From positions 1-64,000 of the forward strand of contig JAFGJX010000070.1 of assembly GCA_016928865.1 (NCBI GenBank): a DNA stretch of 64,000 nt. The letters are read 5' to 3'. This document shows positions 14,237 to 33,336 of the stretch, one piece after another (the stretch's first letter is position 1; each line of letters begins with the position of its first letter). Under the pieces are notes generated by a model. The model was not told the origin of the DNA. It made no database searches and was given only the letters and a program-made list of their open reading frames with translations. This stretch comes from Spirochaetota bacterium (GTDB lineage: Bacteria; Spirochaetota; UBA4802; UBA5550). Position numbers and translations under genes: made by a program.

Positions 14237-14362
14237 GATCTTGCAGAACGGTCAAGAATATTATGAGTGCAGTATAAATCAATCTTGACAAAAACCGCGG
14301 ATGACATGTATCCCGAAAAGCCAGTGGTATTGACTCTGCGAGATGGATGAGACGTGCACGAT

Positions 14363-15580: not shown

Positions 15581-15644
15581 CAGGGCCGCGGTGTCCGGTA
15601 TGAACGTTTCCGGACGATTACCGTACTAATGCAGGGAGCGTGTT

Positions 15645-15950
15645 ATGGCGAAAATTGAGAGCGGCACCAGAGAAGAGGTGCGCAGGCTGGTTTACGAATT
15701 TTTTTCAGAGGAGTGCGAGGTGCCCGTCGATCAGCTGAATGACGGGACCAATGTGATCAGGGACCTGGAAGGGGACTCGCTCATGTTTCTCGAGCTCCTC
15801 GAAGTTTTCAAGAAAAAATACGGACTGAATGTAGAGCTTAAGACCGTGGGAAAATATGTCGTGAAGCACCCGGCGGAAACAATTGGCGCTATCATCGCCA
15901 TGACAATGCTTATTATCGAGCACGAGAACAGGATAGCGGAGCTCGACTGA
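15645..15950 (+). CDS. Acyl carrier protein 1
   Basis: A 101-residue carrier protein holding growing acyl chains on a phosphopantetheine arm. The attachment Ser lies in EGDSLMFLELLEVF (about residue 46), the DSL motif of ACPs. The C-terminal helix is longer than in FabF-partner ACPs. AGGGAG precedes the ATG. It sits 64 bp after the ketosynthase and 19 bp before the acyltransferase, so it is the probable dedicated carrier of this locus. Confidence 0.9.
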   Translation: MAKIESGTREEVRRLVYEFFSEECEVPVDQLNDGTNVIRDLEGDSLMFLELLEVFKKKYGLNVELKTVGKYVVKHPAETIGAIIAMTMLIIEHENRIAELD

Positions 15951-15969
15951 CCGGGACCGGGGGCTTATT

Positions 15970-18266: not shown

Positions 18267-18275
18267 GGCATCCGG

Positions 18276-19403: not shown

Positions 19404-20033
19404 GCCTCCCGGAAGACTGTATGCCGGCAGAACCGGCGGTGATGCGTTCTATCATCTCAACTGCCCCGGCTATGACGTGTTTTCTGGGCGTCACAACATC
19501 AACGAGGTTCCATGCGAGCGCCTCTTCAGCGGTGAAGGTGGCACCAGAAAGCACTAGCTCCAGCGTGCGCGCCCTGCCGGCGAGCGAAAGCATCCTGGTT
19601 ATGCCGCCGCAGCCAGGCATCAGCCCGAAGGTCGACTCAGGCAGTCCGAGCACCGATCCCGCGCCGCACACGCGCGCGTGGCAGGCAAGGGCAAGCTCGA
19701 AAGCGGATCCGAGGCAGACCCCCTGAATCGCGGCTACCACGGGTACGCCGCAGTTTTCGAAAAAACCGAATGCCGAAAGATTGTTGCGCAGAAGGGCCGG
19801 AGCCCGGGCACCGCGATCGGAAACAGCGTTCCTGAGATCATCGAGGTCCGCGCCCGAGGAGAAATGCCTGCCCGCGCCGCGGATAACGATGCCTCTCACG
19901 CCGGAAGCGGATATCACTCCGTCAGTGAGGCGCTTCAGTTCAGAAAAAAAAAGCGGTCCATGCTGTTGGCAGGCGGGTCGTTAAGGACAAGGTGCCCTAT
20001 TGAACCGCGCACAATGTAGCTCGGGTTATTCAT
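19384..20033 (-). CDS. Enoyl-CoA hydratase/isomerase 2, frameshifted at a nine-base homopolymer
   Basis: A crotonase-family protein that would hydrate or isomerise an enoyl thioester. The reading frame breaks at nine A on the plus strand (19944-19952). Upstream of it, the ATG at 20033 gives MNNPSYIVRGSIGHLVLNDP, a normal crotonase N-terminus. Downstream, a shifted frame gives SELKRLTDG and then the oxyanion and active-site segments RGAGRHFSSGADL, GSAFELALAC and GLPESTFGLMPGCGG, with both catalytic Glu positions. Joining them needs one more or two fewer A. If the sequence is right, only a truncated product from a GTG at 19917 would be made. The start overlaps the preceding crotonase by 8 bp, so the gene was built into the operon. 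Confidence 0.75.
19944..19952. repeat. A9 homopolymer breaking a crotonase gene
   Basis: Nine consecutive A on the plus strand (T9 in the coding strand). The frame changes exactly here. Such tracts are prone to replication slippage, transcriptional slippage and sequencing error. Confidence 0.85.
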
Positions 20034-20760
20034 CCGCTGCTGCCGCCAGTCTGCAAAACATTATCGTCTCCTCTTCAATGGCTTCGTGCGGTGACATGAC
20101 GCGCGCGTTGTTGATGGCCCGGACTATCGAATTAATGGCGGTAAGCGGCCTGTCAGCAACCATTTTTTTTATAAGTGATACGGAAAAATCGACGGCCGCG
20201 CGGGCCGGAACAAGATGGTCCACAAGCTTCAGCTCCAGCGCGCGTGAGGCGTCGATGATATCGCCGGAGAGGAGGATCTGCAGCGCCGTGCTCCGGCCCA
20301 ACGCGGCCGCAATGCGTGACGCTCCGCCAAGGCCGGGTACGAGCCCGTGGTTTATTTCCGGGAACGCGAATATGGCGTTTTCGCAGCAGACCCGGATATG
20401 ACAGGCGAGGGCAATCTCGAGGCCGGCTCCGAAGCAGGCGCCGCGTATGGCGGCTATAACGGGAAGCTCGATCGCATCAAGATGTCCAAGAATGCGCAAT
20501 CCCTTTTCCATCTCTGACAGGAGAGACGACTCACTGGCAGCCAGATCCCTGATGCGGGAGAGATCGCCGCCTGCTGAAAAATGGCGCCCCGCGCCGGTGA
20601 TGATTATTCCGCGGAGGGACGATTCTGACGTCCATTCGCGGAGACGGTCGATTTCGACGAAAGCGGGATCGGTTATGTAATTCTGGGGCGGATTGTCGAG
20701 GGTCAGGATCCCGATGCCGTCATCGACCTCCCATGTCGTCATAATTGATCGCTCCATCAT
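20026..20760 (-). CDS. Enoyl-CoA hydratase/isomerase 1
   Basis: A 244-residue crotonase-family protein. The oxyanion-hole segments are ITGAGRHFSAGGDL and ACFGAGLEIALAC; the two catalytic Glu positions are filled in GLEIALAC and FPEINHGLVPGLGG, so hydratase activity is possible. The start at 20760 overlaps the thioesterase stop (ATGA); an internal ATG at 20742 has GGAG at good spacing and may be the true start. It is followed by the frameshifted second crotonase. In this locus it would provide the dehydration or hydration step of chain processing on CoA or ACP. Confidence 0.88.
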   Translation of the reverse strand: MMERSIMTTWEVDDGIGILTLDNPPQNYITDPAFVEIDRLREWTSESSLRGIIITGAGRHFSAGGDLSRIRDLAASESSLLSEMEKGLRILGHLDAIELPVIAAIRGACFGAGLEIALACHIRVCCENAIFAFPEINHGLVPGLGGASRIAAALGRSTALQILLSGDIIDASRALELKLVDHLVPARAAVDFSVSLIKKMVADRPLTAINSIVRAINNARVMSPHEAIEEETIMFCRLAAAADE

Positions 20761-21161
20761 GCCCCCGGGAAGAAGGCTGGGATGTCGTGGGGAATACGGT
20801 CCCGGTCTACGAGGAGCGTTTTAATGCTACCGCGCGCTATCAGCTCCCCCGTACGAGCGGTTCTGATGGCATGGCTGAATACCAGGTAGGGCGGATCGCG
20901 CGATATATCAGTGCCGCAGACGAGTTCGTCAAAGACTTTTGCCTCGCGCGAATAACGGATGGACGCTTCGGCAACAACCAGGATAAGCCCATTCTGGGAG
21001 AAATAGCCGAAGAGGTCCGCTGACCTGAGGATCTCCCATCGGGCCTGCTCAAGGTAGTTGAGATATACCGCGTTGTTTACGTGACCGAAGGAATCGATCT
21101 CGTATCCACGCACCATGAACCTGAATTCGTATTGCATGGGAAGCTTGTCCATGACATACAC
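20757..21161 (-). CDS. Hotdog-fold acyl-CoA/ACP thioesterase (4HBT/YbgC type)
   Basis: A 134-residue single hotdog domain. The signature GYEIDSFGHVNNAVYLNYLEQ contains the Asp and the HVNN segment of the 4-hydroxybenzoyl-CoA thioesterase/YbgC family. It would release or edit the acyl chain. It is the first gene of a four-gene minus-strand operon (thioesterase, two crotonases, KAS III-like) in which every junction overlaps. The operon is divergent from the dehydrogenase gene at 21255, with 93 bp between. Confidence 0.85.
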   Translation of the reverse strand: MYVMDKLPMQYEFRFMVRGYEIDSFGHVNNAVYLNYLEQARWEILRSADLFGYFSQNGLILVVAEASIRYSREAKVFDELVCGTDISRDPPYLVFSHAIRTARTGELIARGSIKTLLVDRDRIPHDIPAFFPGA

Positions 21162-21212
21162 TTTTTCATAAGGATTCAGATCCTGTCAATCAGGATGTGA
21201 ATCTTTTTTTTA

Positions 21213-21242
21213 TTGCAATATTTTAAAGGCAAAAATGATACT
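21213..21242 (+). promoter_or_regulatory. Possible promoter for the dehydrogenase/radical SAM pair
   Basis: TTGCAA (21213-21218) and GATACT (21237-21242) at 18-bp spacing lie in the short divergent gap. The start codon at 21255 follows closely, so the transcript would be nearly leaderless. Weak consensus match. Confidence 0.3.
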
Positions 21243-21254
21243 GATATCTAAATC

Positions 21255-22445
21255 ATGTCGGAAAAACGACCTTACAGCATTGGCATTATCGGAAGCGGAC
21301 GCATGGGTCTGGATATTTTCGAGTACCTGTCTGATTTCATGTTCCCGCTGACTTTGATATGCATCTCGGATCAGGAACGGCTGGCTGCGCAAAAGTCCAT
21401 CGCGCGAAGGATGGAACGGCGCCGCCGGAACGGTCTTATAGGAGAGGAGCAGTTCGACTTCAGAAAAATGAACTGCGTTATATCCTCATCACTGAAAGAT
21501 TGCAGCGGGTGCGATATCATTATCGAGGCGATATACGAGGATGAGGAGGCAAAACGGACGCTGTACCGGAACCTCGAAGCGATCGTGCGGGAAGACGCGG
21601 TCATCGTTTCAAACTCTTCATCCATTTCCCCGTCTCGTATCGCTGACAGCGGCATCAGCAGGGGTCGCTGTGCAGGACTCCACTTTTTCTTCCCCGTAAG
21701 GTACAAGAATGTCGCGGAGCTGATACGCATGGATCATACCGATGACGCCGTCATGCGTAGACTCAGGGAATTTCTTGCGGAGATCAACAGGTTTTATCTC
21801 GAAATGGGGGAGGATGATGCGTTTATCCTCAATCGCATTGTTCTTGACTGCCAGGCTCAGGCATGCCGTTTTTTAACCGAGGACCGCTATACTGCCAGGG
21901 AGATTGACCGCATCATGCAACGAAGGCTCTTTACTCATGGCATTTTTGAGTTTTTCGACAGCGTGGGCATAGATGTGGCCGCTCGCGCGGTAGACAACTA
22001 CGCCACCTTGCGCGGGGATATTGAATTCTACCGGCCCCTGCTGATGTCGCTGAGAAAATTGATGTCGGAAAACAGGCTGGGGAAGAAAACCGGGGCGGGA
22101 TTCCATGACTATGCCCGGCAGGGAGAGGCGGAGATCGCCGGCGCGATCAAGGGAGCCGAGCGGGTCGAGCTGGTGCTCACGGCGCTCTATATCAACTCGG
22201 CATTCAAGGCATGCGAGCGCGGGAAATGGTCACCGGAGGACCTGGAATACGCGCTCACAGAATATACGGGTTGCCCTGAGGGACCATTTGCACTCGCGCA
22301 GGAAATCGGGACGTCGGAGTTGCGTGATCTGCTTTCAGAGCATCACATGACGACAGGCTTTGAGGCATTCAGGCCGTCGCGGCTTCTCGATAGGGCAGGC
22401 AACGACTCTCAGCATGAAAGGGGTGACGGCGAAGAGGTTTTATAA
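21255..22445 (+). CDS. 3-hydroxyacyl-CoA dehydrogenase family protein
   Basis: A 396-residue NAD(P)-dependent enzyme interconverting 3-hydroxyacyl and 3-ketoacyl thioesters. The Rossmann motif is GIIGSGRMG at the N-terminus. The catalytic region GLHFFFPVRYKNVAELI keeps the His and the Glu of the family, with Phe where the family often has Asn. The C-terminal 3HCDH domain contains GKKTGAGFHDYA. No FabG-type reductase is nearby, so this CoA-type enzyme may provide the ketoreduction of the locus. Its stop lies 4 bp before the next ATG, indicating an operon with the radical SAM gene. Confidence 0.85.
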   Translation: MSEKRPYSIGIIGSGRMGLDIFEYLSDFMFPLTLICISDQERLAAQKSIARRMERRRRNGLIGEEQFDFRKMNCVISSSLKDCSGCDIIIEAIYEDEEAKRTLYRNLEAIVREDAVIVSNSSSISPSRIADSGISRGRCAGLHFFFPVRYKNVAELIRMDHTDDAVMRRLREFLAEINRFYLEMGEDDAFILNRIVLDCQAQACRFLTEDRYTAREIDRIMQRRLFTHGIFEFFDSVGIDVAARAVDNYATLRGDIEFYRPLLMSLRKLMSENRLGKKTGAGFHDYARQGEAEIAGAIKGAERVELVLTALYINSAFKACERGKWSPEDLEYALTEYTGCPEGPFALAQEIGTSELRDLLSEHHMTTGFEAFRPSRLLDRAGNDSQHERGDGEEVL

Positions 22446-22449
22446 CCGT

Positions 22450-23874
22450 ATGATGAAAAAAGTCCTTCTCGTAAACACGAACATGGAGATGCGGCCGTAC
22501 CCGGTGCCGCCGCTGGGACTCTGTCTTGTCGCGTCCTCGCTCGGGAGCGAATACGATGTATGCATATATGATCCCGCGGATGACCGCGGTGCGGCACTTC
22601 CCGGCGTCGTGGAGGCCTTCCGCCCGGATTACGTGGGGGTGTCGGTCAGGAACATAGACGACATGAACTTCGTAAATCCGACAAGCTATAAAGAGACGAT
22701 ACGCGATTTGTTCATAACGCCTATACGCGATATCACGCGCGCTCCGATGATCCTCGGCGGAAGCGGATTCAGCATTTTCCCCGAATACTTTCTCGATTAC
22801 TACGGCGCTGACTTTGGGATCTTCGGCGAGGGAGAAGCGGCCTTGGCACAGCTTCTGCAATGTCTTGACAATCGAGGGGACCCTCGCTCAGTGCCGGGGA
22901 TCGTCATGCCGGGCGCCGGACGCGCCAAACGTCCCGACGGTTACTTAAACCTTTCAGACCTGCCTTTTTCTGAAATCGATTTAAGGATCGATTATAAACC
23001 GTATCGCGCTCGGGGATCGTATCCGGTGCAGACAAAGCGGGGATGCGCTCACAGCTGTATATACTGCACCTATAACTGCATCGAAGGTTACCGGTATCGG
23101 GTCAGGCCCCCGGAGCAGGTCGCTGATGAGATAGAGCAGGCCGCGGCGCGGCTCGGCAATGTCACCTTCGAGTTCGTAGACTCCACCTTCAACGATCCCC
23201 CGGGCCACGCGGAGGGCATCTGCGCCGAAATCGTCCGGCGCGGTCTCGGGGTACGGCTCAGAACCATGGGCATCAATCCCGTCAACGTCAACCGGCACCT
23301 CTTCGACCTGATGCTCGAAGCCGGGTTTGCGCAGATCGACTGCACGCCTGACAGCGCGTCTCCGCGCATGCTCGCAAGCCTTGGAAAGAATTTCACCATT
23401 GATGATCTTGAGAGAACCGCGCGTATCGTGCGCGATGCAGATATCCCCACCATGTGGTTTTTTCTTTTCGGCGGCCCGGGAGAGACCGAAGAGACGATGC
23501 GCGAGACTTTCGATTTCATTGACCGCTCGATCAGCGGCAGGGACATGGTCCACATGACCTGCGGGCTTCGCATCTATCCCGGAACCGGCCTGTTCAGGCG
23601 CGCCCTCGAGGACGGGACGCTGTCCCCGGGTGATCCCGCCACTGAAGCACGCTTTTACATCTCAAAGGACCTCGGGAAAGAGCGGCTCTTCGAGTTGGTC
23701 CACGAGGCATCGCGCGCGCGCCCCAACTGCGTGCCGGTCATGGAAACCGAGCCGTCACCCGAAATGATGCGTGAGGCGCTGGAGTTGCGCCGCGCGCGCG
23801 GCCTTACCGAGCCGATGTTCAGGACGCTTTTGCGTGTCAGATACCGGATGCTCGGCTGCGAGATGCGTGGATAA
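22450..23874 (+). CDS. B12-binding-domain radical SAM protein 2
   Basis: A 474-residue protein with an N-terminal cobalamin-binding-like domain (KKVLLVNTNME, PVPPLGLCLVASSL) and a radical SAM core with cysteines in CAHSCIYC. A later GGPGETEETM segment is typical of the class. The frame is open from 22360, but MMKKVLLVN at 22450 begins the domain and follows the dehydrogenase stop directly. It may act on the same thioester-bound chain as the neighbouring enzymes; the substrate cannot be read from sequence. Confidence 0.86.
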   Translation: MMKKVLLVNTNMEMRPYPVPPLGLCLVASSLGSEYDVCIYDPADDRGAALPGVVEAFRPDYVGVSVRNIDDMNFVNPTSYKETIRDLFITPIRDITRAPMILGGSGFSIFPEYFLDYYGADFGIFGEGEAALAQLLQCLDNRGDPRSVPGIVMPGAGRAKRPDGYLNLSDLPFSEIDLRIDYKPYRARGSYPVQTKRGCAHSCIYCTYNCIEGYRYRVRPPEQVADEIEQAAARLGNVTFEFVDSTFNDPPGHAEGICAEIVRRGLGVRLRTMGINPVNVNRHLFDLMLEAGFAQIDCTPDSASPRMLASLGKNFTIDDLERTARIVRDADIPTMWFFLFGGPGETEETMRETFDFIDRSISGRDMVHMTCGLRIYPGTGLFRRALEDGTLSPGDPATEARFYISKDLGKERLFELVHEASRARPNCVPVMETEPSPEMMREALELRRARGLTEPMFRTLLRVRYRMLGCEMRG

Positions 23875-23892
23875 GAACGATATAAAAAGATT

Positions 23893-23922
23893 TTGACAAA
23901 AATACGATGCTTCCGGTATGGT
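23893..23922 (+). promoter_or_regulatory. Sigma-70-like promoter of the Deg protease pair
   Basis: TTGACA (23893-23898) and TATGGT (23917-23922) are 18 bp apart, just upstream of the protease start. This placement rules out the more upstream TTG start for the protease. Confidence 0.55.
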
Positions 23923-23940
23923 TTAACGAATATGCTTTGC

Positions 23941-25425
23941 ATGAAGGGTAACAGATTGAACGGAATCCGCCAGATCATTGTAACTGTACTTGCGCTGTTT
24001 GTTGCGCTGCCGTGCGCCGGCGCTGAATCACGGCTTGACGTGAGCCGGGCGACGGTCAAGATAATTCGCACCGCCATACAGCCGGACTACAATCTTCCGT
24101 GGAAGATGAAGGAGCCGGAAACATCGGTCGGATCGGGCGCCATCATTGCAGGTAAAAAGATCCTCACCAACGCGCATGTCGTTTCCGACGCGACCTATAT
24201 TCAGGTCAAAAAGGAGAGCGACCCGGAATTATACGACGCCACTATTCTCTTCATAGCGCATGATTGCGATCTTGCCCTGCTCGACGTCTCCGATCCGAAT
24301 TTTTACCGGGATACGGTTCAGCTCGCGCTGGGCGGACTCCCGGAGCTGCGCTCGAAAGTGACCACGTACGGCTACCCGATGGGGGGGAGCCGCATATCGA
24401 TAACCGAAGGCGTGACCTCGCGGATCGAAATCGGCGAGTACGCCCACAGCGGAAGCATGTCGTTTCTCCTGATTCAGACGGACGCCGCGATAAATCCGGG
24501 AAACAGCGGCGGACCTGTCATGCAGGGCGACGCCATTGCAGGGATCGCCTTCCAGGCCAATATACACTCCGACAACATCGGCTACCTGATTCCGACCCCA
24601 ATCATCAGGCATTTCCTTGACGATGTCCGCGACGGCAGGTATGACGGATTTCCCATGCTCGGCGCTTTTACCGATTCCCTTGAAAACATCAGCTTCAGGA
24701 GATATCTCGGCATGAAGGACGGACAGAGCGGCGTCATCGTAACCGTTGTAGTTCCCGGAGGCGGCGCAGAGGGACACCTCCGGCCGGGAGATGTTATAAC
24801 CGGCATCGATTCCGTTCCGATCGCCAGTGACGGCACCATTCGCTTCAAACAGGGAAGAATATACTACTCGTATGTAATCGACACGAAACAGGTTGGCGAA
24901 CCGGTCACCCTTGACGTCCTGAGAAAAGGAAAGTCATTCACCGTCAGGTATCCCATGCGTTCATATCCCTTCAGAATATCATGGTTCAATGAATACGAGA
25001 CGATGCCGCGCTATTGCATCTTCGGGGGCCTGGTATTCCAGCCGCTTTCGAAGGAATATCTCATGACATGGGACAAGTGGTGGCATAACGCCGACCGGCG
25101 CCTTCTCTATTATTATCAATACCATATAAGCGACGCGCTGTTTCCAGAGCGGAAGGAATTCGTCGTGCTGAACCGCGTGCTGCCGGACCAGGCCAATACC
25201 TACCTCACGGACCTTCACGACAAGGCGGTGGATGAGATAAACGGCGTGAAGATAATGCGTCTTGAGGATGTGCCGGAGGCCTTTAAAAAACCGAGGAACG
25301 GATACCATGTCATACGCCTGGACGGCACGACATTTCCCCTGGTGCTGAAAGCTTCGGAAATGGATGCGGCCAATCGGAGAATATGCGAAAAATACAGCAT
25401 CCCGTCGCTGATACGGTTGCAGTGA
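23941..25425 (+). CDS. Deg9-type trypsin-like serine protease with PDZ domains (active)
   Basis: An exported HtrA/Deg protease of about 494 residues. A signal peptide (LPCAGA cleavage) precedes the chymotrypsin-fold domain with an intact triad: His79 in TNAHVVSDA, Asp110 in HDCDLALLD and Ser189 in NPGNSGGPV. A PDZ domain follows (about 255-335), then a C-terminal region (PRYCIFGGLVFQPLS onward) like the second PDZ of plant Deg9 and yeast Nma111 proteases. ATGs at 23932 and 23941 and a TTG at 23956 are all possible starts; 23941 is chosen. It is followed 34 bp later by an inactive paralogue. Role: probably periplasmic protein quality control or processing. Confidence 0.88.
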   Translation: MKGNRLNGIRQIIVTVLALFVALPCAGAESRLDVSRATVKIIRTAIQPDYNLPWKMKEPETSVGSGAIIAGKKILTNAHVVSDATYIQVKKESDPELYDATILFIAHDCDLALLDVSDPNFYRDTVQLALGGLPELRSKVTTYGYPMGGSRISITEGVTSRIEIGEYAHSGSMSFLLIQTDAAINPGNSGGPVMQGDAIAGIAFQANIHSDNIGYLIPTPIIRHFLDDVRDGRYDGFPMLGAFTDSLENISFRRYLGMKDGQSGVIVTVVVPGGGAEGHLRPGDVITGIDSVPIASDGTIRFKQGRIYYSYVIDTKQVGEPVTLDVLRKGKSFTVRYPMRSYPFRISWFNEYETMPRYCIFGGLVFQPLSKEYLMTWDKWWHNADRRLLYYYQYHISDALFPERKEFVVLNRVLPDQANTYLTDLHDKAVDEINGVKIMRLEDVPEAFKKPRNGYHVIRLDGTTFPLVLKASEMDAANRRICEKYSIPSLIRLQ

Positions 25426-25459
25426 TGACCGCGGCCGGATGAAGGGAAGAGTGATCAGG

Positions 25460-26938
25460 ATGGCACGAGTGAGAAATATTATAATACTGCTGGCGGCCTG
25501 GTCCGGCCTGTGCGCGTCGTTATCCCCGGCCGCGCACGCCATGGACGACCGCGTGGTTTATCTGCTCGTCACATCGCAGAAATACGATTACGCCTCGCCC
25601 TGGCAGATGGGTGATATCTCGCGTTCGAACGCAACCGGATGCGTCATTGACGGCAATATGATACTGACATCCGCGTATGCGATAACCGATCATTCAGGCA
25701 TTGAAGTGATGAAGAAGGGCGAAAGCCGCAAGTATCAGGCGGAAGTATATATCAAGGACTATCATTGCGGTCTCGCGCTCCTCAGGGTGAAAGACAGGAG
25801 CTTTTTCAAAGGGCTCAAGCCGGTTGAATTCGGACCGTCCGGCAAAATTCCGGGCAGGGCGGCCGTCGTGTACCGCTGGGACTCGCTCAGCAGCCTGAAG
25901 GAATATTCAGCCAACCTGACGAAAGCATCAATCCGTTTTTACGAACCGGGATGCTCTGCCCTCATGTACCAGTTCTCAACCAGCATGAACGAAGGCGGAA
26001 ACGGCGAGCCGGTCTTCATCGACGGCAGGCTCGCAGGCGTCGCGGCGGCGCTCAGCGGCGAATCGAAGACGCTCTACGTTCTGGGGATAGACGTGGTGCT
26101 GCGCATGCTGAAAGACGCGGGCGACGGCGACTATCGCGGCGTTCCATTTTTCTGGATCGACGGGGTGGAGCTCAGGAGCGACGTTAATCTCCGCGACTAC
26201 TTCGGCGTCGCGGCGGGTGACGGCGGCGTACTCGTTACCGGTGTCCCCGCCATAAGCAGCGGGGGAGAATCCCTCAGGATAAACGATATCATACAATCAA
26301 TCGACGGACATCGCATCGATGACAGCGGCATGTACGATTCGCCCTATGGCAAATTGTACTATTACGGCCTGGTTCAGCTCGATCATCAGGTAGGGGATTC
26401 GATCTCCATGGTGGTCCTGCGCGACAGGCGGCAGACGACCCTGCGGTTCACGCTCAAGCCGGTTCCGGACGAGTGCTGCGCGATTCCGCTTATATCGCAC
26501 GACCGGGGACCCCGCTACTGCGTTGTCGGCGGCCTGGTTTTCCAGGAGCTCAGCGCCGGATACCTCGAGCTCTACGGGAGAGACTGGAAGAAGAAAGCTG
26601 ACAAGCGGCTGGTCTATTATTATGATTCAGTCAAGTCGCTTGTAGAGAAGGGGCCGGAGGTCAGGGTGGTCGTTCTCACGCGGGTCCTTCCCGACACCGT
26701 GAATAAGGGCTACCAGCAGTACCACAGCCTGGTTCTAAACAGCGTGAACGGCGTAAGCGTGAAAAACCTTACACAGATGAAAAAACTGGTCGATAGAGCA
26801 GCGGGCGATTACCTCGTGTTTTCGTTTGTGGGTGAGACAACTGTGGTGCTCGATAAAAATGAGGCATCACGCGGAGAAAGCGAATTGATGCAGAAATACA
26901 ACGTGACCGCGCCGCATAATATACCAGACGTCAATTAA
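25460..26938 (+). CDS. Catalytically dead Deg9-type protease paralogue
   Basis: An exported protein of about 492 residues with the same plan as the protease before it: signal peptide (SLSPAAHA), protease fold, PDZ and Deg9-like C-terminal domain (PRYCVVGGLVFQELS). All three catalytic positions have changed: His to Tyr73 (TSAYAITD), Asp to Gly104 (YHCGLALL) and Ser to Asn181 (NEGGNGEPV). The fold landmarks around them remain, and the frame is intact over its whole length, so it is kept as a pseudoprotease and is not decaying. The ATG at 25460 has GGGAAGAG upstream; an ATG at 25439 is an alternative. It may regulate or form mixed oligomers with the active enzyme. Confidence 0.87.
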   Translation: MARVRNIIILLAAWSGLCASLSPAAHAMDDRVVYLLVTSQKYDYASPWQMGDISRSNATGCVIDGNMILTSAYAITDHSGIEVMKKGESRKYQAEVYIKDYHCGLALLRVKDRSFFKGLKPVEFGPSGKIPGRAAVVYRWDSLSSLKEYSANLTKASIRFYEPGCSALMYQFSTSMNEGGNGEPVFIDGRLAGVAAALSGESKTLYVLGIDVVLRMLKDAGDGDYRGVPFFWIDGVELRSDVNLRDYFGVAAGDGGVLVTGVPAISSGGESLRINDIIQSIDGHRIDDSGMYDSPYGKLYYYGLVQLDHQVGDSISMVVLRDRRQTTLRFTLKPVPDECCAIPLISHDRGPRYCVVGGLVFQELSAGYLELYGRDWKKKADKRLVYYYDSVKSLVEKGPEVRVVVLTRVLPDTVNKGYQQYHSLVLNSVNGVSVKNLTQMKKLVDRAAGDYLVFSFVGETTVVLDKNEASRGESELMQKYNVTAPHNIPDVN

Positions 26939-26951
26939 GAGCGGTGGCTAA

Positions 26952-26968
26952 ACGCGCTCTATGCGCGT
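26952..26968. terminator. Small GC-rich hairpin after the Deg pair
   Basis: ACGCGC (26952-26957) and GCGCGT (26963-26968) form a perfect 6-bp stem with a TCTAT loop; a five-T run follows about nine bases later. It could be a weak terminator. Confidence 0.35.
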
Positions 26969-27098
26969 CATAAGCCTTTTTCAACAGGTTTATCACGCGA
27001 TGAAAAATCAAACGGTCCTCTGCCGCTCAGTTTATTATTCTATGCTTCATTGGCCTAACGGAACAGAGTGTGATTATTAATAGTTTATGGAGTCCATG

Positions 27099-28109
27099 AT
27101 GATCGTTCGTACCGTCGTATGTGTATGCCTGATTCTCATGCCTGTGGTGCTCGGCGCGCAGGAAAAACGTGAGATGAGATCTGACGTTCTGGCACAGGCA
27201 GCGGTCCCGGCGACACGAAATATAAAAGCGCCTGAAGCCGACGTGATGAAGAATGACGGAGATGCGTCTGCCCGGAAAAAGGAAGGGATCGCCATAATGA
27301 AAAAATCGATCCGGTATTCCATTCTCGCGGCCCTTCCCATAAACACCTATGTCGTTTCCCTCCTGACGTGGGACTGGGGCAAAACAACGAAATTCAGGGT
27401 GGGGCATGAAGGGTGGTTCGGGCATAACACCTATACCGGCGGCTCGGACAAGGTCGCGCACATGTTCTCATTTTACACGCTGATGAGGATACTCTATAAC
27501 GTATATGACTACACCGAGGACGGCGCGGACTCGAAATGGGCCTTTTCGGCAGGCCTTGCCACATTCATGGCGCTCGGCATCGAGATCGGGGACGGGTTCT
27601 GCAAAAACCAGAACGGGTTCGGGTATGCCGACCTTACCATGGGGCTGATCGGCATAGGGATAGCCTCGCTGCTTGAAGCGTTCCCGGCGGTCGATGCCTT
27701 CGTCAGCCTGAGCGCCCAGTACATCCCTACGAAATATTTCAGGAAGCATCCGCAGCGTCTGAAATGGTTCATGGACGACTACAGCGGATGGCGCTTTATG
27801 GCTAACATCAAGCTCGCCGGTTTCCGCTACCTCGGCATCAACATCCCGGAATTTCTCCGGTACGTGCAGTTCGATATCGGCTATTACACGACCGGGTATA
27901 CCACATACGATTATGCCTGGGGCGAGCTCGAACGCACCTTCAACATAAAGGGTAAGGAGCGGAACGTGTTTATCGGGATATCGGTCAACCTGACGGAATT
28001 CATCAAGGACTTCTTTGACGACAAGGAGAGCCTTGCCTGCAGGGCGCTGCAGCAGCCGTTCAAGTATTACCATGTTCCGCTCGGCGTCGATCATCGATTC
28101 AGGCTATAG
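27099..28109 (+). CDS. DUF2279 (YfiM-like) envelope protein
   Basis: A 336-residue exported protein. A signal peptide (VVLGAQ cleavage) is followed by a charged segment, a hydrophobic stretch and the DUF2279 core GGSDKVAHMFSFYTLMRI, with further membrane-like segments (about 145-220). The C-terminal half has alternating aromatic strands ending LGVDHRFRL, as in outer-membrane beta structures. Three in-frame ATGs lie at 27087, 27096 and 27099; ATGGAG at 27087 itself looks like the ribosome site, which favours 27099. Function is unknown. It lies 11 bp before the HTH gene and probably shares its transcript. Confidence 0.72.
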   Translation: MIVRTVVCVCLILMPVVLGAQEKREMRSDVLAQAAVPATRNIKAPEADVMKNDGDASARKKEGIAIMKKSIRYSILAALPINTYVVSLLTWDWGKTTKFRVGHEGWFGHNTYTGGSDKVAHMFSFYTLMRILYNVYDYTEDGADSKWAFSAGLATFMALGIEIGDGFCKNQNGFGYADLTMGLIGIGIASLLEAFPAVDAFVSLSAQYIPTKYFRKHPQRLKWFMDDYSGWRFMANIKLAGFRYLGINIPEFLRYVQFDIGYYTTGYTTYDYAWGELERTFNIKGKERNVFIGISVNLTEFIKDFFDDKESLACRALQQPFKYYHVPLGVDHRFRL

Positions 28110-28120
28110 GGGGCGTCATT

Positions 28121-28588
28121 ATGAAGGAAAAAGACGTACGGGTCGATTACCGGAAGCACCAGGTTGTCCTCTACGCTGAAAAAAGGGACGGATCGTACGG
28201 ACCGGTGCGGACCGGCTCTTATATCACGAAGAATTATCTCGATGACTACTGGCTCAAGAGAAACAATCTCGAGCGTGAGTATCTCGAAAAGGTTCGCGGG
28301 GGAGAAATAAGTCCCATCGCCTATTACATGGTCCTCGAGGAGCTGACGCCGTCAGAGCTGGCGTCACGCGTGAAGCTGTCGACCCGGAAAGTGAAGCGAC
28401 ACATGACGCCTGAGCACTTCGGCGAGGCAACGGTGGAGCAGCTGCGTCGCTACTGCGAGGTATTCAACGTGCCGATTGCAGGCATGTTCCAGGCGGTTGT
28501 CACCAGGAAGAAGGGCGTCAGGGTTGAGGAATTGAAAACAGATAATCCTTATTTCAGCATATATACCATCGCGACGGAGAAAAAATGA
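28121..28588 (+). CDS. Small HTH-like regulatory protein
   Basis: A 155-residue protein. Residues about 75-125 (LTPSELASRVKLSTRKVKRH, then TVEQLRRYCEVFNVPIAGMF) have the helix-turn-helix layout of Cro/XRE repressors. The N-terminal 70 residues (VVLYAEKRDGSYGPV onward) are unrecognised. It overlaps the BtrH-like gene by four bases (ATGA), so the two proteins are made together. It may be the local regulator of the acyl-transfer cassette. Confidence 0.65.
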   Translation: MKEKDVRVDYRKHQVVLYAEKRDGSYGPVRTGSYITKNYLDDYWLKRNNLEREYLEKVRGGEISPIAYYMVLEELTPSELASRVKLSTRKVKRHMTPEHFGEATVEQLRRYCEVFNVPIAGMFQAVVTRKKGVRVEELKTDNPYFSIYTIATEKK

Positions 28589-29589
28589 CGTTCAAGCATA
28601 CCATGGCGGCGCACTGCGAGTCCGGCACGGTCGCCGCTCTGTTGAAGCACGAGGGAATGGACATCTCCGAGCCGCTTGTGTTCGGCATGTCCGCCGGCAT
28701 ATTCTTCGGCTATTTCGAATCAAGGAAATTCCCTTTCCCGACATTCGTGGTGAGGAACCGTCCCGGACAGATCAGGACCGGCATGGCGAGCCGCATCGGG
28801 GTGAAATTCAGGGAACAGAAGTTCCGTGATCCGGGAGCGGGGGAAAGGGCTCTTGACGATCTTCTTGCCCGGGAGATCCCTGTCGCGTGCCAGACTGATT
28901 TTTTCTACATGAACTACCTGCCCGGCCATGTGCGGGTGCATATCAATGTCCATTTTATCATCGCGGTTGAAAAGAAAGACGGCGTCTACCTGGTGAGCGA
29001 CTGCTATTCGCCCGATATCGCTCCGCTCGACAGGGATTCGATGATGAAGGCCCGCTTCGCCGGGGGCAGCTTCGCGCCGCGCGGCTTCATGTTTTATCCG
29101 GTATCGGTGCCGGAGCGAATCGATTACCGGACAGCGATATGGAAGGGAATCCGCAGCGCGGCCTTCAACATGGTCAGGCTGCCCATGCCGTTCCTGGGGG
29201 TCAGGGGGATACGGCTCTTTGCGAAAAAAGTCGTTGACTGGCCGCGTCTCGCCCGCGACACCGAGCACCTGTCTCACGAAATCATGAAGATAAACATCCT
29301 GCTCGAAGACCAGGGCACCGGCGGGGCCGGATTCAGGTTCATGTACGCGACCTTCCTGCGCGAAGCGGCCGAGCGTCTCAAAGACCCGGATCTCCACGAT
29401 ATGTCGAAGCGTATCATGGAGATAGGAGACAGATGGCGCGAGATATCCCTTTTTGCCGCCCGCATCGGAAAGCGGCGCGATCTCGGACAGGACCGTCTCA
29501 GGGAGCTGAGCTCCCTGATATATGAACGCGCTGACGCGGAAGAGTCATTTTTCAGGGATCTGCTGGCTATGAGTAAAAAAAAGATATGA
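28585..29589 (+). CDS. BtrH-like (BtrH_N/DUF4872) acyltransferase
   Basis: A 334-residue protein related to butirosin biosynthesis protein H, which moves an acyl group from an acyl carrier protein to an amine. The N-terminal papain-like motif is AAHCESGTVAALLKHEG, with the nucleophile Cys in HCES, followed by LVFGMSAGIFFGY. The region VHINVHFIIAVEKKDGVYLV carries a candidate catalytic His. The C-terminal part (about 200-334) is helical as in DUF4872. An acyl carrier gene follows 15 bp downstream, which fits the family's known partner. Confidence 0.78.
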   Translation: MTFKHTMAAHCESGTVAALLKHEGMDISEPLVFGMSAGIFFGYFESRKFPFPTFVVRNRPGQIRTGMASRIGVKFREQKFRDPGAGERALDDLLAREIPVACQTDFFYMNYLPGHVRVHINVHFIIAVEKKDGVYLVSDCYSPDIAPLDRDSMMKARFAGGSFAPRGFMFYPVSVPERIDYRTAIWKGIRSAAFNMVRLPMPFLGVRGIRLFAKKVVDWPRLARDTEHLSHEIMKINILLEDQGTGGAGFRFMYATFLREAAERLKDPDLHDMSKRIMEIGDRWREISLFAARIGKRRDLGQDRLRELSSLIYERADAEESFFRDLLAMSKKKI

Positions 29590-29604
29590 AGACATGGTGA
29601 GGCT

Positions 29605-29883
29605 ATGACGGCAAACATTCCAGATGCGTTAAAAAACGAGATCAAGCTCCTGATCATTGACGCGCTCAATATCGATGATGTGGGCCCGGAAGAGGTGGGG
29701 GATGATGATGCCCTGTTCGGCGACGGGAACGTGCTCGGACTGGATTCGATTGATGCGCTTGAGATTGTCATGGCGCTCCAGGAGAAATACGGAGTGCGGA
29801 TCGACGACAAGAACCAGGCGCGTTTCATTCTCAAATCAATAACCACGATCGCAGAATATATCGAGGCAAACAGGACGAGATAA
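29605..29883 (+). CDS. Acyl carrier protein 2
   Basis: A 92-residue carrier protein with the phosphopantetheine site LGLDSIDALEIVMALQEKYG (Ser about residue 48). GGTGAGG precedes the ATG. It directly follows the BtrH-like gene, so the loaded form is its probable acyl donor. It differs clearly from acyl carrier protein 1, suggesting separate channels in the pathway. Confidence 0.9.
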   Translation: MTANIPDALKNEIKLLIIDALNIDDVGPEEVGDDDALFGDGNVLGLDSIDALEIVMALQEKYGVRIDDKNQARFILKSITTIAEYIEANRTR

Positions 29884-29887
29884 GCCG

Positions 29888-29913
29888 GAAGGCAAATGCG
29901 TGTATCGGCCTTC
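29888..29913. terminator. Hairpin between convergent genes
   Basis: GAAGGC (29888-29893) and GCCTTC (29908-29913) form a 6-bp stem with a 14-nt loop between acyl carrier protein 2 and the convergent radical SAM gene. There is no long T-tract, so termination would be weak. Confidence 0.4.
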
Positions 29914-29918
29914 TTCGG

Positions 29919-31289
29919 TCATGCGCCGGTATAGAATTCGTCCTTTGACACGTCAATGGCCCCGCGCAGTTTCGACTGGAGCACGAGTGAGAATATTGTC
30001 CTGTGTATCCGTTCGTTGGGAAATCTGGGCAGGTGATAGAGGGTTCGCCTTACGATTTCCCTGAAGGAATATCCCCGATCGCCTATTCGCTTGAGCGCAT
30101 CGAATATATCCGCGTCTCTGATGGTCGGGTGCACAAAATTAACCAGCTTGCTGTCGTCAAGTTTTCCCTCCCGCTCCAGGCGTTCGTACAGCCGCGTCCC
30201 GGGGAGCGCCTTTATGGGAAATATAACCGGGATGATGCTCGTTTCCCGGCAGAATTCAAGGGTGCGGAAATAGGTGTCGATATCGTCATCCTCGTAGCCG
30301 ATAACGAACCATCCCGATACAAGTATGCCCTGGTCCTGTATGAACCGGATATGCTCCTTCATGACGGCGATCACGTCGCCTCCCTTCCGGGCGCCCATTT
30401 TGTTAATGGCTCCGGATCCGGCAAGGGTCTTCGGGTTGACCGACTCCATGCCGATCGCCGCGTATATGAGACCGGCCTCCGCCGCTTTTTTTATGACAGC
30501 CCTCCCTTTTTGATCTGCCGCAGCATCGAGATTGGCCTGTCCCGTCCAGAAGCGCCTTTTCTTCAGATTTGAGATCGCCCCGTACAGATCGAGGTAGTAG
30601 TCATAGGACGCCTTCTTCCCGAACACGGAGTCATCGAGCAGGTAATAGTAATTACTGAACGAATTGATCTCAGCAACGACGTCCGAAACGGACCTGGTCC
30701 TGAAGCCGGGGCCAAACAGCTCCGTCACAGTGCAGAAATCGCAGTTGATCGGACAGCCGCGCACTGCATAGACCGTGTCAAAAACATATTTTTTCCTGTA
30801 GGGGCGCCTCAACGGCAGCGGCACGTGATTCAGGTCGGGATAGCGGTTGATCTGGTGAAGGGTACGTCCCCGCGGATCAAAGGGCTTCGGCGAGCAAACG
30901 TAAAAGTCTTTCAGTGAATTATGCTCTGCATCGCGGACAATTACAGGCCAGAGCTCCTCCGCCTCTCCAATCGCCACCGCATCAGCGTGCATGATCGCGC
31001 GAAAGGGCACCACTGACGGCTGGGGCCCACCCATGACGACAGTGACGCCCCGCCTGCGGAACTGATCCGCGATCTCGTATGCTCTGTTTTCCGCGGTATA
31101 GCGCACGCTTATCCCCACGAGGTCCACGGGCTCGTCGAAGCGTTCATCGTCCTCCCAGAGGAGGTCGATGAACTGGTAGTCGTGCCCGGGAGCGCTTCCA
31201 GCCAGGATCGGCAAAGAGAGCGGCATGAACGGGTCATTCTTGCGAAGCGGGTCACGAAGGGAAGCCGCGAGTATCAGTTTTATTCTCAT
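29919..31289 (-). CDS. B12-binding-domain radical SAM protein 3
   Basis: A 456-residue protein with an N-terminal cobalamin-binding-like domain (VDLVGISVRYTAENRAYEIA, VVMGGPQPSVVP) and a radical SAM core with cysteines in CPINCDFC. LPGTRLYERLEREGKL near residue 375 is typical of the HpnJ/HpnP-like lipid-modifying group and its relatives. It is the last gene of a minus-strand run: MBL hydrolase, methyltransferase, this gene, with gaps of about 74 to 80 bp. The substrate is unknown. Confidence 0.86.
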   Translation of the reverse strand: MRIKLILAASLRDPLRKNDPFMPLSLPILAGSAPGHDYQFIDLLWEDDERFDEPVDLVGISVRYTAENRAYEIADQFRRRGVTVVMGGPQPSVVPFRAIMHADAVAIGEAEELWPVIVRDAEHNSLKDFYVCSPKPFDPRGRTLHQINRYPDLNHVPLPLRRPYRKKYVFDTVYAVRGCPINCDFCTVTELFGPGFRTRSVSDVVAEINSFSNYYYLLDDSVFGKKASYDYYLDLYGAISNLKKRRFWTGQANLDAAADQKGRAVIKKAAEAGLIYAAIGMESVNPKTLAGSGAINKMGARKGGDVIAVMKEHIRFIQDQGILVSGWFVIGYEDDDIDTYFRTLEFCRETSIIPVIFPIKALPGTRLYERLEREGKLDDSKLVNFVHPTIRDADIFDALKRIGDRGYSFREIVRRTLYHLPRFPNERIHRTIFSLVLQSKLRGAIDVSKDEFYTGA

Positions 31290-31363
31290 GGTGTCATAGT
31301 ACGGGTTACCGGGTGTTTACCGCAATAATTATATCATTTGCAGCTGTTGCAATCCATCAATAT

Positions 31364-32407
31364 TCACGGCTTGGTGGCCGTAATGATGCCAAGACCAGGG
31401 GAATGATTGATGGCGTGGTAGCGCGTGCGGCTGAATCCGGACTGATCCAGAAAGTCGGCTATCTCGGCATGTGTGTATATCCTTCCTTCAGTCGAGTTGA
31501 ATAGTTCAAGGAGGACAAAGTAGGCGTTGGCCTTCATGAACCGGGAAGGGGATGCCTTTCCGATATGATCCATGATGACAAGCAGACCGCCGTGATTGAG
31601 TGAGCGGCATATCTTGACGAGGATTGTTTTTAAAATGACCGGATCAAATATACGGATGGTATTGAACATGAGAATGATATCCTGGCCGTCAGGAAGCTCG
31701 TCTTTCAGAAAATCTCCTGCCATAAACGATATCCGTCCAGAAAGTCCGGTTGACAATATGTTCTCCATGGCAATTCGTGAGGCCGAAGGCCAGTCATACA
31801 CCACGCCGGTTAACCGCGGATAGCGTTTGCAAAATTCGATTGAGTACTGGCCATGGCTGCCGCCCAGGTCAAGGAGGTGTTCTGCGGTCCGGGGGATTCG
31901 AATTCTCTTTAGGATTTCCGGCGATAACATCATGGCCGCGCTTTTAAGACCTGCATGGTACGCGTCCCATCTCTTCTGGTCCTGATCGAGCCATTCGTAG
32001 CCAAGACGAGGCGGTCGTCCGTGTCGCATGGATTCGTCCAGATATTCCCAGCGGGCCGATATGTCGTTGAATTGATCGAACATGGCCGAAATATTTGATG
32101 GAGAATCGTGCAGGAGCCAATTCTGCGTCATGAACGTATTTCTGATTTTATTTCGCCTGATGCGCACGTATCCAAGGCTTTCAAGGGCGCCTATAAGAAG
32201 ACCGAGGCCGGCGCGGTCAGTCCCGGTTGCCGAGGTGATCTGATCGATAGTTTTTGCATCGCGGCCTATTGCGTCGAACAAGCCGAGCCGGAGGGCCGTC
32301 ATGACCGCTTTGAAAGCCAGCACGCCCATGAGGTCTGCCATCGGACCGGGTCCCTTCCCCAGGCGCAGGAGGGCTATGCGCTCAAACAGGTTTAGCTGAA
32401 CCGGCAT
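31364..32407 (-). CDS. SAM-dependent O-methyltransferase with dimerisation domain
   Basis: About 347 residues. A winged-helix dimerisation domain (about 20-105, with LRLGLFDAIG and GLLIGALESLGYVRI) is followed by a class I methyltransferase fold whose SAM loop is LLDLGGSHGQYSIEFC. This is the layout of plant caffeate-type and polyketide O-methyltransferases. The ATG at 32407 has GGAGAA at good spacing; a GTG six bases upstream is less likely. It probably methylates a hydroxyl on the product of the locus. Confidence 0.82.
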   Translation of the reverse strand: MPVQLNLFERIALLRLGKGPGPMADLMGVLAFKAVMTALRLGLFDAIGRDAKTIDQITSATGTDRAGLGLLIGALESLGYVRIRRNKIRNTFMTQNWLLHDSPSNISAMFDQFNDISARWEYLDESMRHGRPPRLGYEWLDQDQKRWDAYHAGLKSAAMMLSPEILKRIRIPRTAEHLLDLGGSHGQYSIEFCKRYPRLTGVVYDWPSASRIAMENILSTGLSGRISFMAGDFLKDELPDGQDIILMFNTIRIFDPVILKTILVKICRSLNHGGLLVIMDHIGKASPSRFMKANAYFVLLELFNSTEGRIYTHAEIADFLDQSGFSRTRYHAINHSPGLGIITATKP

Positions 32408-32487
32408 TCGCACTTCTCCGGGGATTCATGCATCCTTATCCCAGTATTGCATCGCGTCATGCTGATACCCTCGCCATGGCTTTCCGT

Positions 32488-33336
32488 TTATTCAAAGCGA
32501 TAGTACACGTGCTGTTGCGCGAGGCCGGCAAAACCGTACGCGGCGGCTTTTTTTTCGAACTGCTCCCAATTGTCCCCGTAATGCGCCAGGTAGGTTTTCT
32601 TCTTTATATCACCGGGGAGTTCTTTCAGCTCATCAATGCCGGCATGCACGCCGCCCGTGAAAAACTGACAGTCATGGAATATCGTTTCAAAGTTGAATTC
32701 CCTGTCGTACACGGTCACCAGGTCTTCGTCGTACCTGGTGTCGCTTGTGAACAGAACCCGGTCGTCAATAATGGCCCCGCAGCTCCAGAAAGAACTCTGC
32801 CAGTCCGGCGCCGAATCGGGGATGTGCTTGGTCCGCACCATTTTTATGTCGATTGATCCCACTTTTGCATGGAGCGTCTCGCGACGGTATTCGGGAAGTC
32901 TGCTGGGACGAAGAACATCAAAATAATCTTCAAAAGTCAGGACGGTATGTGCGGTTTTTTCATTATGCCCGCATCCGCCGCGGAGTGACATTTCCCATAA
33001 AAAATGCTGGTAGGTAGCATTGATGACCATGCGCGGCTTTCGCTTTGACACATACCTTCCGTTGATAGCGATCTCTTCAAGACCGCCGATATGGTCCGAA
33101 TGTGAATGCGTTATGAGGAGATTCTGTATTTCAGTGACCGGTATGCCGAGTTCGCTGAGCGCCTGCGGGCATCGGGTGCCGCAATCAATGAGTAGATGAT
33201 CGTTACCTTTTATGACGAGTAGATTTGTCTGATAGTGCCTTCGGGAAAACGCGCTTCCGACACCGATAAAAAAAAGCTCAAGCTTTCCGCTGTTTGACAG
33301 CACGACCTTTTTTTTCTTCAATGCATTGATCTTCAT
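32488..33336 (-). CDS. Metallo-beta-lactamase-fold hydrolase
   Basis: A 282-residue hydrolase with the metal site THSHSDHIGG, a preceding LIDCGTRCP, and later FHDCQFFTGG and TYLAHYGDNW. The set fits RNase Z/phosphodiesterase-like members of the superfamily better than true lactamases. GGAG precedes the ATG. It is the first gene of a minus-strand run with the methyltransferase and a radical SAM gene. In biosynthetic loci such enzymes often cleave thioesters or lactones; that is inference here. Confidence 0.8.
   Translation of the reverse strand: MKINALKKKKVVLSNSGKLELFFIGVGSAFSRRHYQTNLLVIKGNDHLLIDCGTRCPQALSELGIPVTEIQNLLITHSHSDHIGGLEEIAINGRYVSKRKPRMVINATYQHFLWEMSLRGGCGHNEKTAHTVLTFEDYFDVLRPSRLPEYRRETLHAKVGSIDIKMVRTKHIPDSAPDWQSSFWSCGAIIDDRVLFTSDTRYDEDLVTVYDREFNFETIFHDCQFFTGGVHAGIDELKELPGDIKKKTYLAHYGDNWEQFEKKAAAYGFAGLAQQHVYYRFE

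Follow-up and report, generated by a model that had tools for sequence, protein, structure and literature searches.

The question raised by positions 28,121 to 29,883 of a 64,000-nucleotide stretch of Spirochaetota bacterium DNA (GenBank assembly GCA_016928865.1, contig JAFGJX010000070.1; the whole stretch is referred to here as the window) is what a helix-turn-helix (HTH) protein, a BtrH-like acyltransferase and an acyl carrier protein (ACP) accomplish together. On balance, we lean towards the view that the trio works as an acyl-transfer unit where a type II fatty-acid/polyketide-like pathway ends, and that the HTH protein, referred to here as DarG, is a dedicated partner of the acyltransferase, DarH, both being named after NCBIfam families. 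The three genes, the ATGA in which the start of the DarH gene overlaps the stop of the DarG gene, and the ACP gene spaced 15 bp further on (DarH stop at 29589, ACP start at 29605) lie, to the base, where the initial annotation had placed them. Judged from the sequence, this four-base overlap likely couples the translation of DarG and DarH. The exact ATGA overlap is not general among copies of the window type with a DarH of at least 300 residues, in which the gap ranges from -4 to +62 bp, a range that depends on start codons chosen by script and is uncertain to that extent. A scan of 26900-30300 for promoters and terminators gave counts no higher than those of shuffled sequence (1 against 2.9 and 4 against 3.7).

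The identity of the second protein is central to this reading. The initial annotation would have been refuted by a BtrH_N domain that profiles did not support; in Pfam, DarH carries BtrH_N (PF14399, E 2.9e-37) together with DUF4872 (PF16169, E 8.5e-45). Moreover, it scores 313.5 bits to DarH_acyl (NF053550, 'BtrH-related acyltransferase DarH'), passing the NCBIfam cut-off of 300, and has the architecture of that family, BtrH_N plus DUF4872 with Cys, His and Asp. None of the 42 aligned sequences departs from His10-Cys11, His123 and Asp139, and of these Cys11, His123 and Asp139 form a putative catalytic triad. The predicted model of DarH is confident (mean predicted local distance difference test, pLDDT, 92.6), and the two-domain BtrH fold spans nearly all of it in the matches, each given for the best chain, to CtaG (Z 24.5, 293 residues aligned, 3.1 Å), AziU3 (Z 23.4, 306 residues) and CcbD (Z 21.9, 305 residues). 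Solved PDB entries of CtaG include the variants C11A, H128A and D144N, in the same order as the DarH triad and with nearly the same numbering. Taken together, the profiles, the invariant residues and the fold matches bear out an acyltransferase of the BtrH type that is coupled to an ACP and probably depends on a carrier.

Two other activities have to be weighed against the same fold evidence. The next-best matches of DarH are C39 peptidase domains, at Z of about 15 over residues 1-177 (PCAT1, Z 15.0), so that a C39-like peptidase working with an ABC exporter might be envisaged; genes resembling ABC-2 transporters, recognized by eye rather than by profile, lie near the pair in loci L051, L057, L089 and L102, and the arcuflavin paper names a homologue 'BtrH-like peptidase' in its Table 1 (PMC3949708). 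We find this hardly credible, given that CtaG, AziU3 and CcbD match much better, at Z 21.9-24.5 along some 300 residues, and that the conserved neighbour of DarH is an ACP. Slightly less improbable, and still very unlikely in our judgement, is a non-acyl enzyme like AziU3, performing an intramolecular substitution after sulfation, with DarG as a small partner like AziU2. In its favour, AziU3, which is known to form a complex with AziU2 (AziU3/U2), ranks among the best fold matches, and the ACP gene of the Bacteroidales locus L102 is immediately followed by one for a sulfotransferase (PF13469, 4.5e-27); against this, no sulfotransferase was found among the 18 scanned proteins of 14354-33336. 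AziU2 is absent from the DarG sequence matches and from the 50 fold matches listed, an absence that excludes nothing.

The third protein is an ACP by profile, matching the PP-binding domain of Pfam (PF00550, E 2.2e-7) and passing the cut-off of the phosphopantetheine-binding subfamily NF006617 (74.7 bits, cut-off 70). Its residues D47 and S48 are invariant in 22 of 22 aligned sequences and constitute what we take, from knowledge of the family, to be the phosphopantetheine site. The calculated isoelectric points (pI) are 9.4 for DarG, 9.5 for DarH and 4.2 for the ACP. The initial annotation had suggested looking for the same trio in other genomes, and a scan of contigs of named genomes with the window DarH yielded 41 loci from Spirochaetes, many Bacteroidales/Bacteroidetes, one member of the Fibrobacterota and one genome labelled Alphaproteobacteria, whose contig (L092) is nearly identical to that of the Bacteroidales locus L086 and is therefore probably misbinned. 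A tree built from 62 distinct DarH-related proteins places the window-type DarH in one clade (42 rows, support 100/99) and the canonical, flexirubin-type DarH in a separate one (11 rows, 100/98), outside which the window protein groups. The cassette is conserved: DarG lies upstream of all 42 window-type DarH, and 40 of them have an ACP gene that starts on the same strand at most 300 bp downstream, the two exceptions being L088, where the contig ends 52 bp past DarH, and L091, where the ACP lies 1.9 kb off. No ACP was found within 300 bp downstream of any of the 11 canonical DarH rows. This arrangement of genes exceeds chance. A DarH fragment beside two intact pairs (L053:7168-7383) is a sign of duplication and loss.

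So tight a linkage between DarH and the ACP gene would also be expected if DarH handed its chain from carrier to carrier, as in loading or in a handover from a fatty acid synthase (FAS) to the ACP of the cluster, or simply unloaded it, with no small-molecule acceptor involved. A precedent of this kind exists in the proposal that CtaG acts between the carriers CtaH and CtaE (in the part of PMC6772006 that deals with this step). We nevertheless regard such a handover as improbable: the reactions assigned or proposed for BtrH-fold acyltransferases end on an amine (in the passages of PMC10318531 and PMC6772006 concerned), and the cluster already contains a hotdog thioesterase (Table 1).

With regard to the first protein, its distribution is informative. 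DarH matches at E ≤0.001 were present in 31 of 296 genomes of the same phylum (7 of the 296 over the cut-off) and in 30 of 345 Bacteroidota genomes (29 over), and neither Dar model matched in 14 control genomes. DarG was found no more than 400 bp upstream of every DarH entered that scored above 200 bits: all 18 in the phylum, all 30 in the Bacteroidota sample and all 41 in 19 genomes holding window-type loci. This amounts to 87 distinct pairs, since two pairs of genome G312 are shared by the last two sets. The converse also held, every DarG from those searches adjoining a DarH (18/18, 30/30 and 41/41); DarG was sought independently of DarH in the Bacteroidota sample only, and in the phylum, of the 31 genomes matching DarH, 29 were searched with the DarG family model. 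When the window DarG was used as query in 59 relatives, it matched in 7, all of which have DarH. No DarG was seen upstream of the weaker BtrH-type matches entered (0/10 and 0/4) or of a 54-bit DarH fragment in genome G301 (0/1). Tandem arrays were found in which DarG and DarH alternate (L052, G298, G300, G305, G306 and G308), and the one-to-one pairing kept within them modestly favours a dedicated enzyme partner over a regulator. The suggestion in the initial annotation that coupling to an HTH protein hints at feedback by the acylated carrier is the less favoured reading; the pairing and the tandem arrays fit an enzyme partner somewhat better.

The HTH fold itself, the absence of which would have counted against the initial annotation, was recovered by structure prediction. 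At the level of sequence, DarG is to be classed as DarG-like only, with 60.3 bits to DarG_fam (NF053536) under a cut-off of 70, which two of its window-type relatives narrowly exceed (75.1 and 70.1 bits); Pfam gave a single sub-threshold match (HTH_24, E 0.061). Designed dTor proteins head its sequence search (E 3e-12). The AlphaFold2 model has a mean pLDDT of 82, with 10-residue blocks of 51-120 at 92-97 and weak values (48-67) for residues 1-40, and the predicted layout consists of beta strands at 15-20 and 26-31, a long helix at 34-59, an Xre-type HTH at 64-126, and further strands at 133-138 and 147-152. The HTH superposes on the repressors DdrO (Z 10.9), SinR (10.8) and P22 c2, at Z 10.1-10.9 for this group, and at Z 9.9 on the enzymes HppE and HEPD, whose HTH-like domain we take not to be a DNA reader. 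Among eight regions compared, helix 3 has the lowest mean entropy (1.28 bits) and is rich in Lys and Arg, with position 93 basic in 55 of 55 sequences and position 94 a His in 50 of 55; its start varies (positions 88 and 89 at 2.14 and 2.05 bits). Judging from this pattern, the constant end of the helix could be a face for a protein.

The strongest competing explanation, which we hold to be a real possibility and yet doubt, is that DarG is a cluster-situated, Xre-type transcription factor acting on its own operon and possibly sensing acyl-ACP or product, DarH and the ACP functioning as proposed above. The match to repressors and the basic helix 3 with variable first positions speak for it, as do inverted repeats near operon starts. 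These were seen in alignments of the divergent region between the thioesterase and 3-hydroxyacyl-CoA dehydrogenase genes (the window and four same-genus clusters), of the region upstream of the ketosynthase gene (four clusters) and of the region upstream of DarG (nine Bacteroidales loci), all of which hold conserved blocks with short inverted repeats, as judged by eye, that can also be read as promoter elements. Upstream of the ketosynthase gene, AAATCAATCTTGACAAAA at 14276-14293 is promoter-like and the same in all four aligned clusters, each of which thus shows the repeat TCAA-N2-TTGA (14279-14288) within it; the window holds five such repeats against 1.43 expected, only that at 14279 lying within the aligned block. 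In the divergent region, TTTTTATTGCAATATTTT at 21207-21224 is similar in the five aligned clusters and also promoter-like. Just upstream of DarG, 14 Bacteroidales loci share a TTGC-N7-GCAA core, and a 17-nucleotide element directly upstream of DarG (L072:9428-9444), ATTGCTATTTTTGCAAA, is identical in 12; it apparently lies within the 3' end of an ABC permease gene, where third codon positions hardly vary (nine aligned).

The same blocks provide part of the case against a regulator. They differ among themselves, and they resemble what we take to be promoter elements (TTGACA and TAnnTTTG). The palindrome ATTGCAAT at 21212 occurs in 2 of the 5 aligned clusters and at chance level in the window (2 against 2.26 expected), and TTGC-N7-GCAA is also at chance level there (1 against 1.30 expected), its single copy lying at 31338-31352 between the O-methyltransferase gene and that of the third radical S-adenosylmethionine (SAM) protein, rSAM3, with no counterpart seen at the same place in L047, L048 and L050. 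The similarity of the HTH to the HppE and HEPD domains, and the single DarG per DarH even in tandem arrays, point in the same direction.

It must be acknowledged that several observations weigh against DarG as an enzyme partner and DarH as an acyltransferase. Firstly, a cluster-situated regulator would be linked to DarH just as DarG is, and some operon starts do have inverted-repeat blocks nearby. The varying start of helix 3 is the pattern that DNA contacts with drifting sites would leave, and the HTH segment of DarG (residues 60-126) has a pI of 6.9, close to neutral, which makes an argument from charge weak. Secondly, the identity of DarH to CtaG and CcbD is only 13-15%, and the correspondence of its triad with that of CtaG rests on order, numbering and fold, not on a residue-by-residue match. 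For CcbD, which we take to be an acyl-transfer enzyme, this role is read from the titles of later PDB entries (complexes with methylthiolincosamide and with the CcbZ PCP domain, and a C19S mutant). LmbD, its lincomycin counterpart, is needed for lincosamide condensation, and the 2015 report on it finds, in the sections bearing on catalysis, no catalytic motif in LmbD/CcbD and proposes LmbE as the catalyst (PMC4351081). Finally, the AziU3/U2 complex is functionally an aziridine synthase according to the relevant portion of PMC12559475, and for this reason the fold alone does not decide the reaction of DarH.

What the unit acts upon has to be sought in its surroundings. The initial annotation had regarded the acceptor as unknown outside antibiotic clusters; the setting is nevertheless one already charted, since DarG_fam and DarH_acyl were named in NCBIfam from dialkylresorcinol/flexirubin clusters. 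In the source genome (90% complete), the best match to DarB, the resorcinol synthase, reaches 55.9 bits (cut-off 550) and the best match to FlxA, the tyrosine ammonia-lyase, 296 bits (cut-off 700), and none of seven spirochaete genomes searched has DarB or FlxA over the cut-off (0/7). A standard flexirubin/dialkylresorcinol cluster in the window was rejected on this basis. Among the control genomes, the DarB model matched in 9 of 14, never over the cut-off, and the FlxA model in 5 of 14, once over it, from which it follows that FlxA over the cut-off is by itself no proof of flexirubin.

The source genome has a second DarG-DarH pair, also with a four-base overlap, on contig C94 (L057:8898-10330). 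Both proteins exceed their cut-offs (DarG 114 bits, DarH 352 bits), and beside them, on the opposite strand, are two ketosynthase-like genes and then an ACP match. Past this pair, genes resembling an ABC-2 transporter were noted by eye and not by profile. The 296-bit FlxA match lies on the same contig and is a histidine-ammonia-lyase-like gene (G000:C94:31980-33446) that may be a diverged starter enzyme; comparable genes occur in other genomes (G042:C17, G102:C24 and G112:C35).

Of 19 searched genomes holding window-type loci, 18 had FlxA over the cut-off (one copy, in G307, with an internal stop), 17 had a DarG of at least 95 bits, taken as canonical, and only 8 had a DarB of at least 545 bits (7 of them above the 550 cut-off). 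FlxA lies at most 15 kb away from 17 of 22 copies of the canonical pair and from 6 of 19 of the window-type pair. Locus L102 has the trio head to head with a tyrosine ammonia-lyase of the flexirubin type (853.5 bits, cut-off 700), in a cluster that also has a canonical DarH (462 bits), a TIGR04072 protein (421 bits, cut-off 360), an LpxL-like acyltransferase (59 bits, below its cut-off) and a ketosynthase. Thus, in the Bacteroidota the cassette shares genomes, and sometimes a cluster, with flexirubin-like genes, and DarB is not needed. In spirochaetes it probably serves another chain. The presence of the cassette in genomes without DarB over the cut-off, that of the source included, makes the acceptor probably not a dialkylresorcinol, and a dialkylresorcinol is an unlikely product in the source genome.

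The trio sits inside a ketosynthase/radical-SAM cluster at approximately 14354-32413 (Table 1), which also encodes a DUF2279 protein. The genes from the ketosynthase to the O-methyltransferase all surround the trio in the same-genus loci L047, L048 and L050, and in L049 all but rSAM3 do so. The rSAM3 gene, convergent with that of the ACP, adjoins the trio in L047, L048, L050 and L051 (65-77% identity), with none in the stretch of L049 examined, and rSAM1 is 60-66% identical in the Bacteroidales loci L072 (partial), L084, L097, L101 and L102. The two trypsin-like/PDZ_3 proteins between rSAM2 and the trio are kept in L047-L050. No FAS-type ketoreductase or dehydratase was named among the 18 proteins scanned (14354-33336), and the dehydrogenase and the crotonases could fill these steps. 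The first crotonase is short (177 residues, its profile match beginning at position 41 of 251), and two stops lie in its frame in the range up to 20049. Next to the cluster, 32488-33336 encodes a metallo-beta-lactamase-fold protein that strongly matches Anti-Pycsar Apyc1 (PF23023, 1.5e-40) and adjoins the cluster in L048, L050, L067 and L068 as well.

Table 1. Features of the trio and of the surrounding cluster, in window coordinates
Feature	Position	Strand	Basis or remark
DarG-like HTH gene	28121-28588	+	155 aa; open reading frame list
DarH/BtrH-type acyltransferase gene	28585-29589	+	334 aa; open reading frame list
ACP gene	29605-29883	+	92 aa; open reading frame list
ATGA, DarH start and DarG stop	28585-28588	+	4-base overlap
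FabF-type ketosynthase	14354-15580	+	NF005589, 428.5 bits over 387; TIGR03150, 437 bits, below cut-off
FabD/MdcH-like acyltransferase	15970-16929	+	TIGR03131, 137 bits; TIGR00128, 131 bits; PF00698, 27.5 bits; all below cut-off
rSAM1, B12-binding radical SAM, HpnR-like	16929-18266	+	Start taken at 16929; TIGR04367, 133 bits, below cut-off
Ketosynthase III, distant StlD/DarB type	18276-19403	-	NF005293, 109 bits (cut-off 450); resorcinol_DarB, 73 bits (cut-off 550)
Crotonase (enoyl-CoA hydratase), first	19384-19917	-	Profile searches
Crotonase (enoyl-CoA hydratase), second	20026-20760	-	Profile searches
Hotdog (YbgC/FadM-like) thioesterase	20757-21161	-	TIGR00051, 50 bits, below cut-off
3-Hydroxyacyl-CoA dehydrogenase	21255-22445	+	PF02737, 1.3e-36
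rSAM2, B12 radical SAM near ladderane-associated type	22402-23874	+	TIGR04072, 310 bits, cut-off 360
Two trypsin-like/PDZ_3 proteins	23893-26938
rSAM3, B12 radical SAM	29919-31289	-	PF04055, 6.1e-8
O-methyltransferase	31364-32413	-	PF00891, 2.3e-22

Within such a cluster, the acyl-transfer unit that we favour may be pictured as follows. The ACP, phosphopantetheinylated at Ser48, would carry the chain that the ketosynthase, acyltransferase, dehydrogenase and hydratase encoded nearby build, and would serve as acyl donor to DarH. On the predicted fold, DarH would take the chain onto Cys11, activated by His123 and Asp139, and might then pass it to a nucleophile, in line with the description of BtrH and the proposal for CtaG. 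DarG would most likely use its Xre-type HTH fold as a dedicated partner of DarH, be it a subunit, a chaperone or a carrier-docking adaptor. A bolder extension, which we put forward as speculation and think unlikely to hold as a whole, is that DarG no longer reads DNA, that the basic end of helix 3 docks the ACP or DarH in a two-subunit acyl-condensing enzyme, and that the window-type unit, with an ACP of its own, joins chains modified by radical SAM enzymes to a non-resorcinol acceptor; such a class of acyl conjugates has, to our knowledge, not yet been described. The significance of the pair is that it is tied to solved carrier-dependent condensing enzymes and is not confined to genomes with DarB, and any dependence of DarH on its partner is testable with three small proteins. 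If DarG is indeed an enzyme partner, annotating such HTH proteins as 'regulator' would mislead.

Compared with known systems, the closest are the DarG and DarH of flexirubin/dialkylresorcinol clusters (NF053536, NF053545 and NF053550), which belong to the same two families by profile and stand in the same order; the window differs from them in a DarG below the cut-off, a DarH in a separate clade with its own ACP, and no DarB over the cut-off. In the arcuflavin cluster of Azoarcus, darD (a conserved hypothetical) lies beside darE (the 'BtrH-like peptidase'), with darC (ACP), the product being a polyene-resorcinol hybrid; the likeness is drawn from table descriptions, the genes called darG and darH there are other genes than NCBI's, and in its account of the cluster the paper gives the BtrH-like gene no function (PMC3949708). 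For Chitinophaga pinensis, the ester bond between polyene and resorcinol was tentatively assigned to a ligase-like protein, in the section of PMC3992019 on this step. Likewise, the open-licence PMC literature, as far as it was covered (library-wide searches did not include the name DarH, and subscription papers fall outside), assigns no function to DarH or to NCBI's DarG.

Among more distant systems, BtrH of butirosin synthesis has the BtrH_N domain in common with DarH, and no aminoglycoside genes were recognized among the window proteins scanned. We know of no DarG-like partner of CtaG, the closthioamide enzyme that shares the DarH fold over nearly its full length with 15% identity. CcbD of celesticetin synthesis (14% identity) was solved with a carrier domain according to a structure title, and its acceptor is an amino sugar. 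BtrH is an ACP:aminoglycoside acyltransferase (in the relevant passage of PMC10318531), and CtaG is proposed, in the corresponding part of PMC6772006, to move an acyl group from the carrier CtaH to an amine held on the carrier CtaE. AziU3 with AziU2 of azinomycin synthesis resembles the pair both in fold over nearly the full length and in having a partner protein, and differs in function (PMC11168924 and PMC12559475, in the parts concerned). The ladderane/PUFA-type clusters of Kuenenia and Desulfotalea, whose pathway is only a proposal in the pertinent section of PMC2649909, likewise combine FabF-type ketosynthases with radical SAM proteins, the TIGR04072-like gene of the window being below the cut-off. 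Both families and their pairing were thus already known from NCBIfam curation; new, within the literature searched, are a distinct clade that has an ACP of its own, the counts for the pairing, its occurrence without DarB, and a link by structure to CtaG, CcbD and AziU3.

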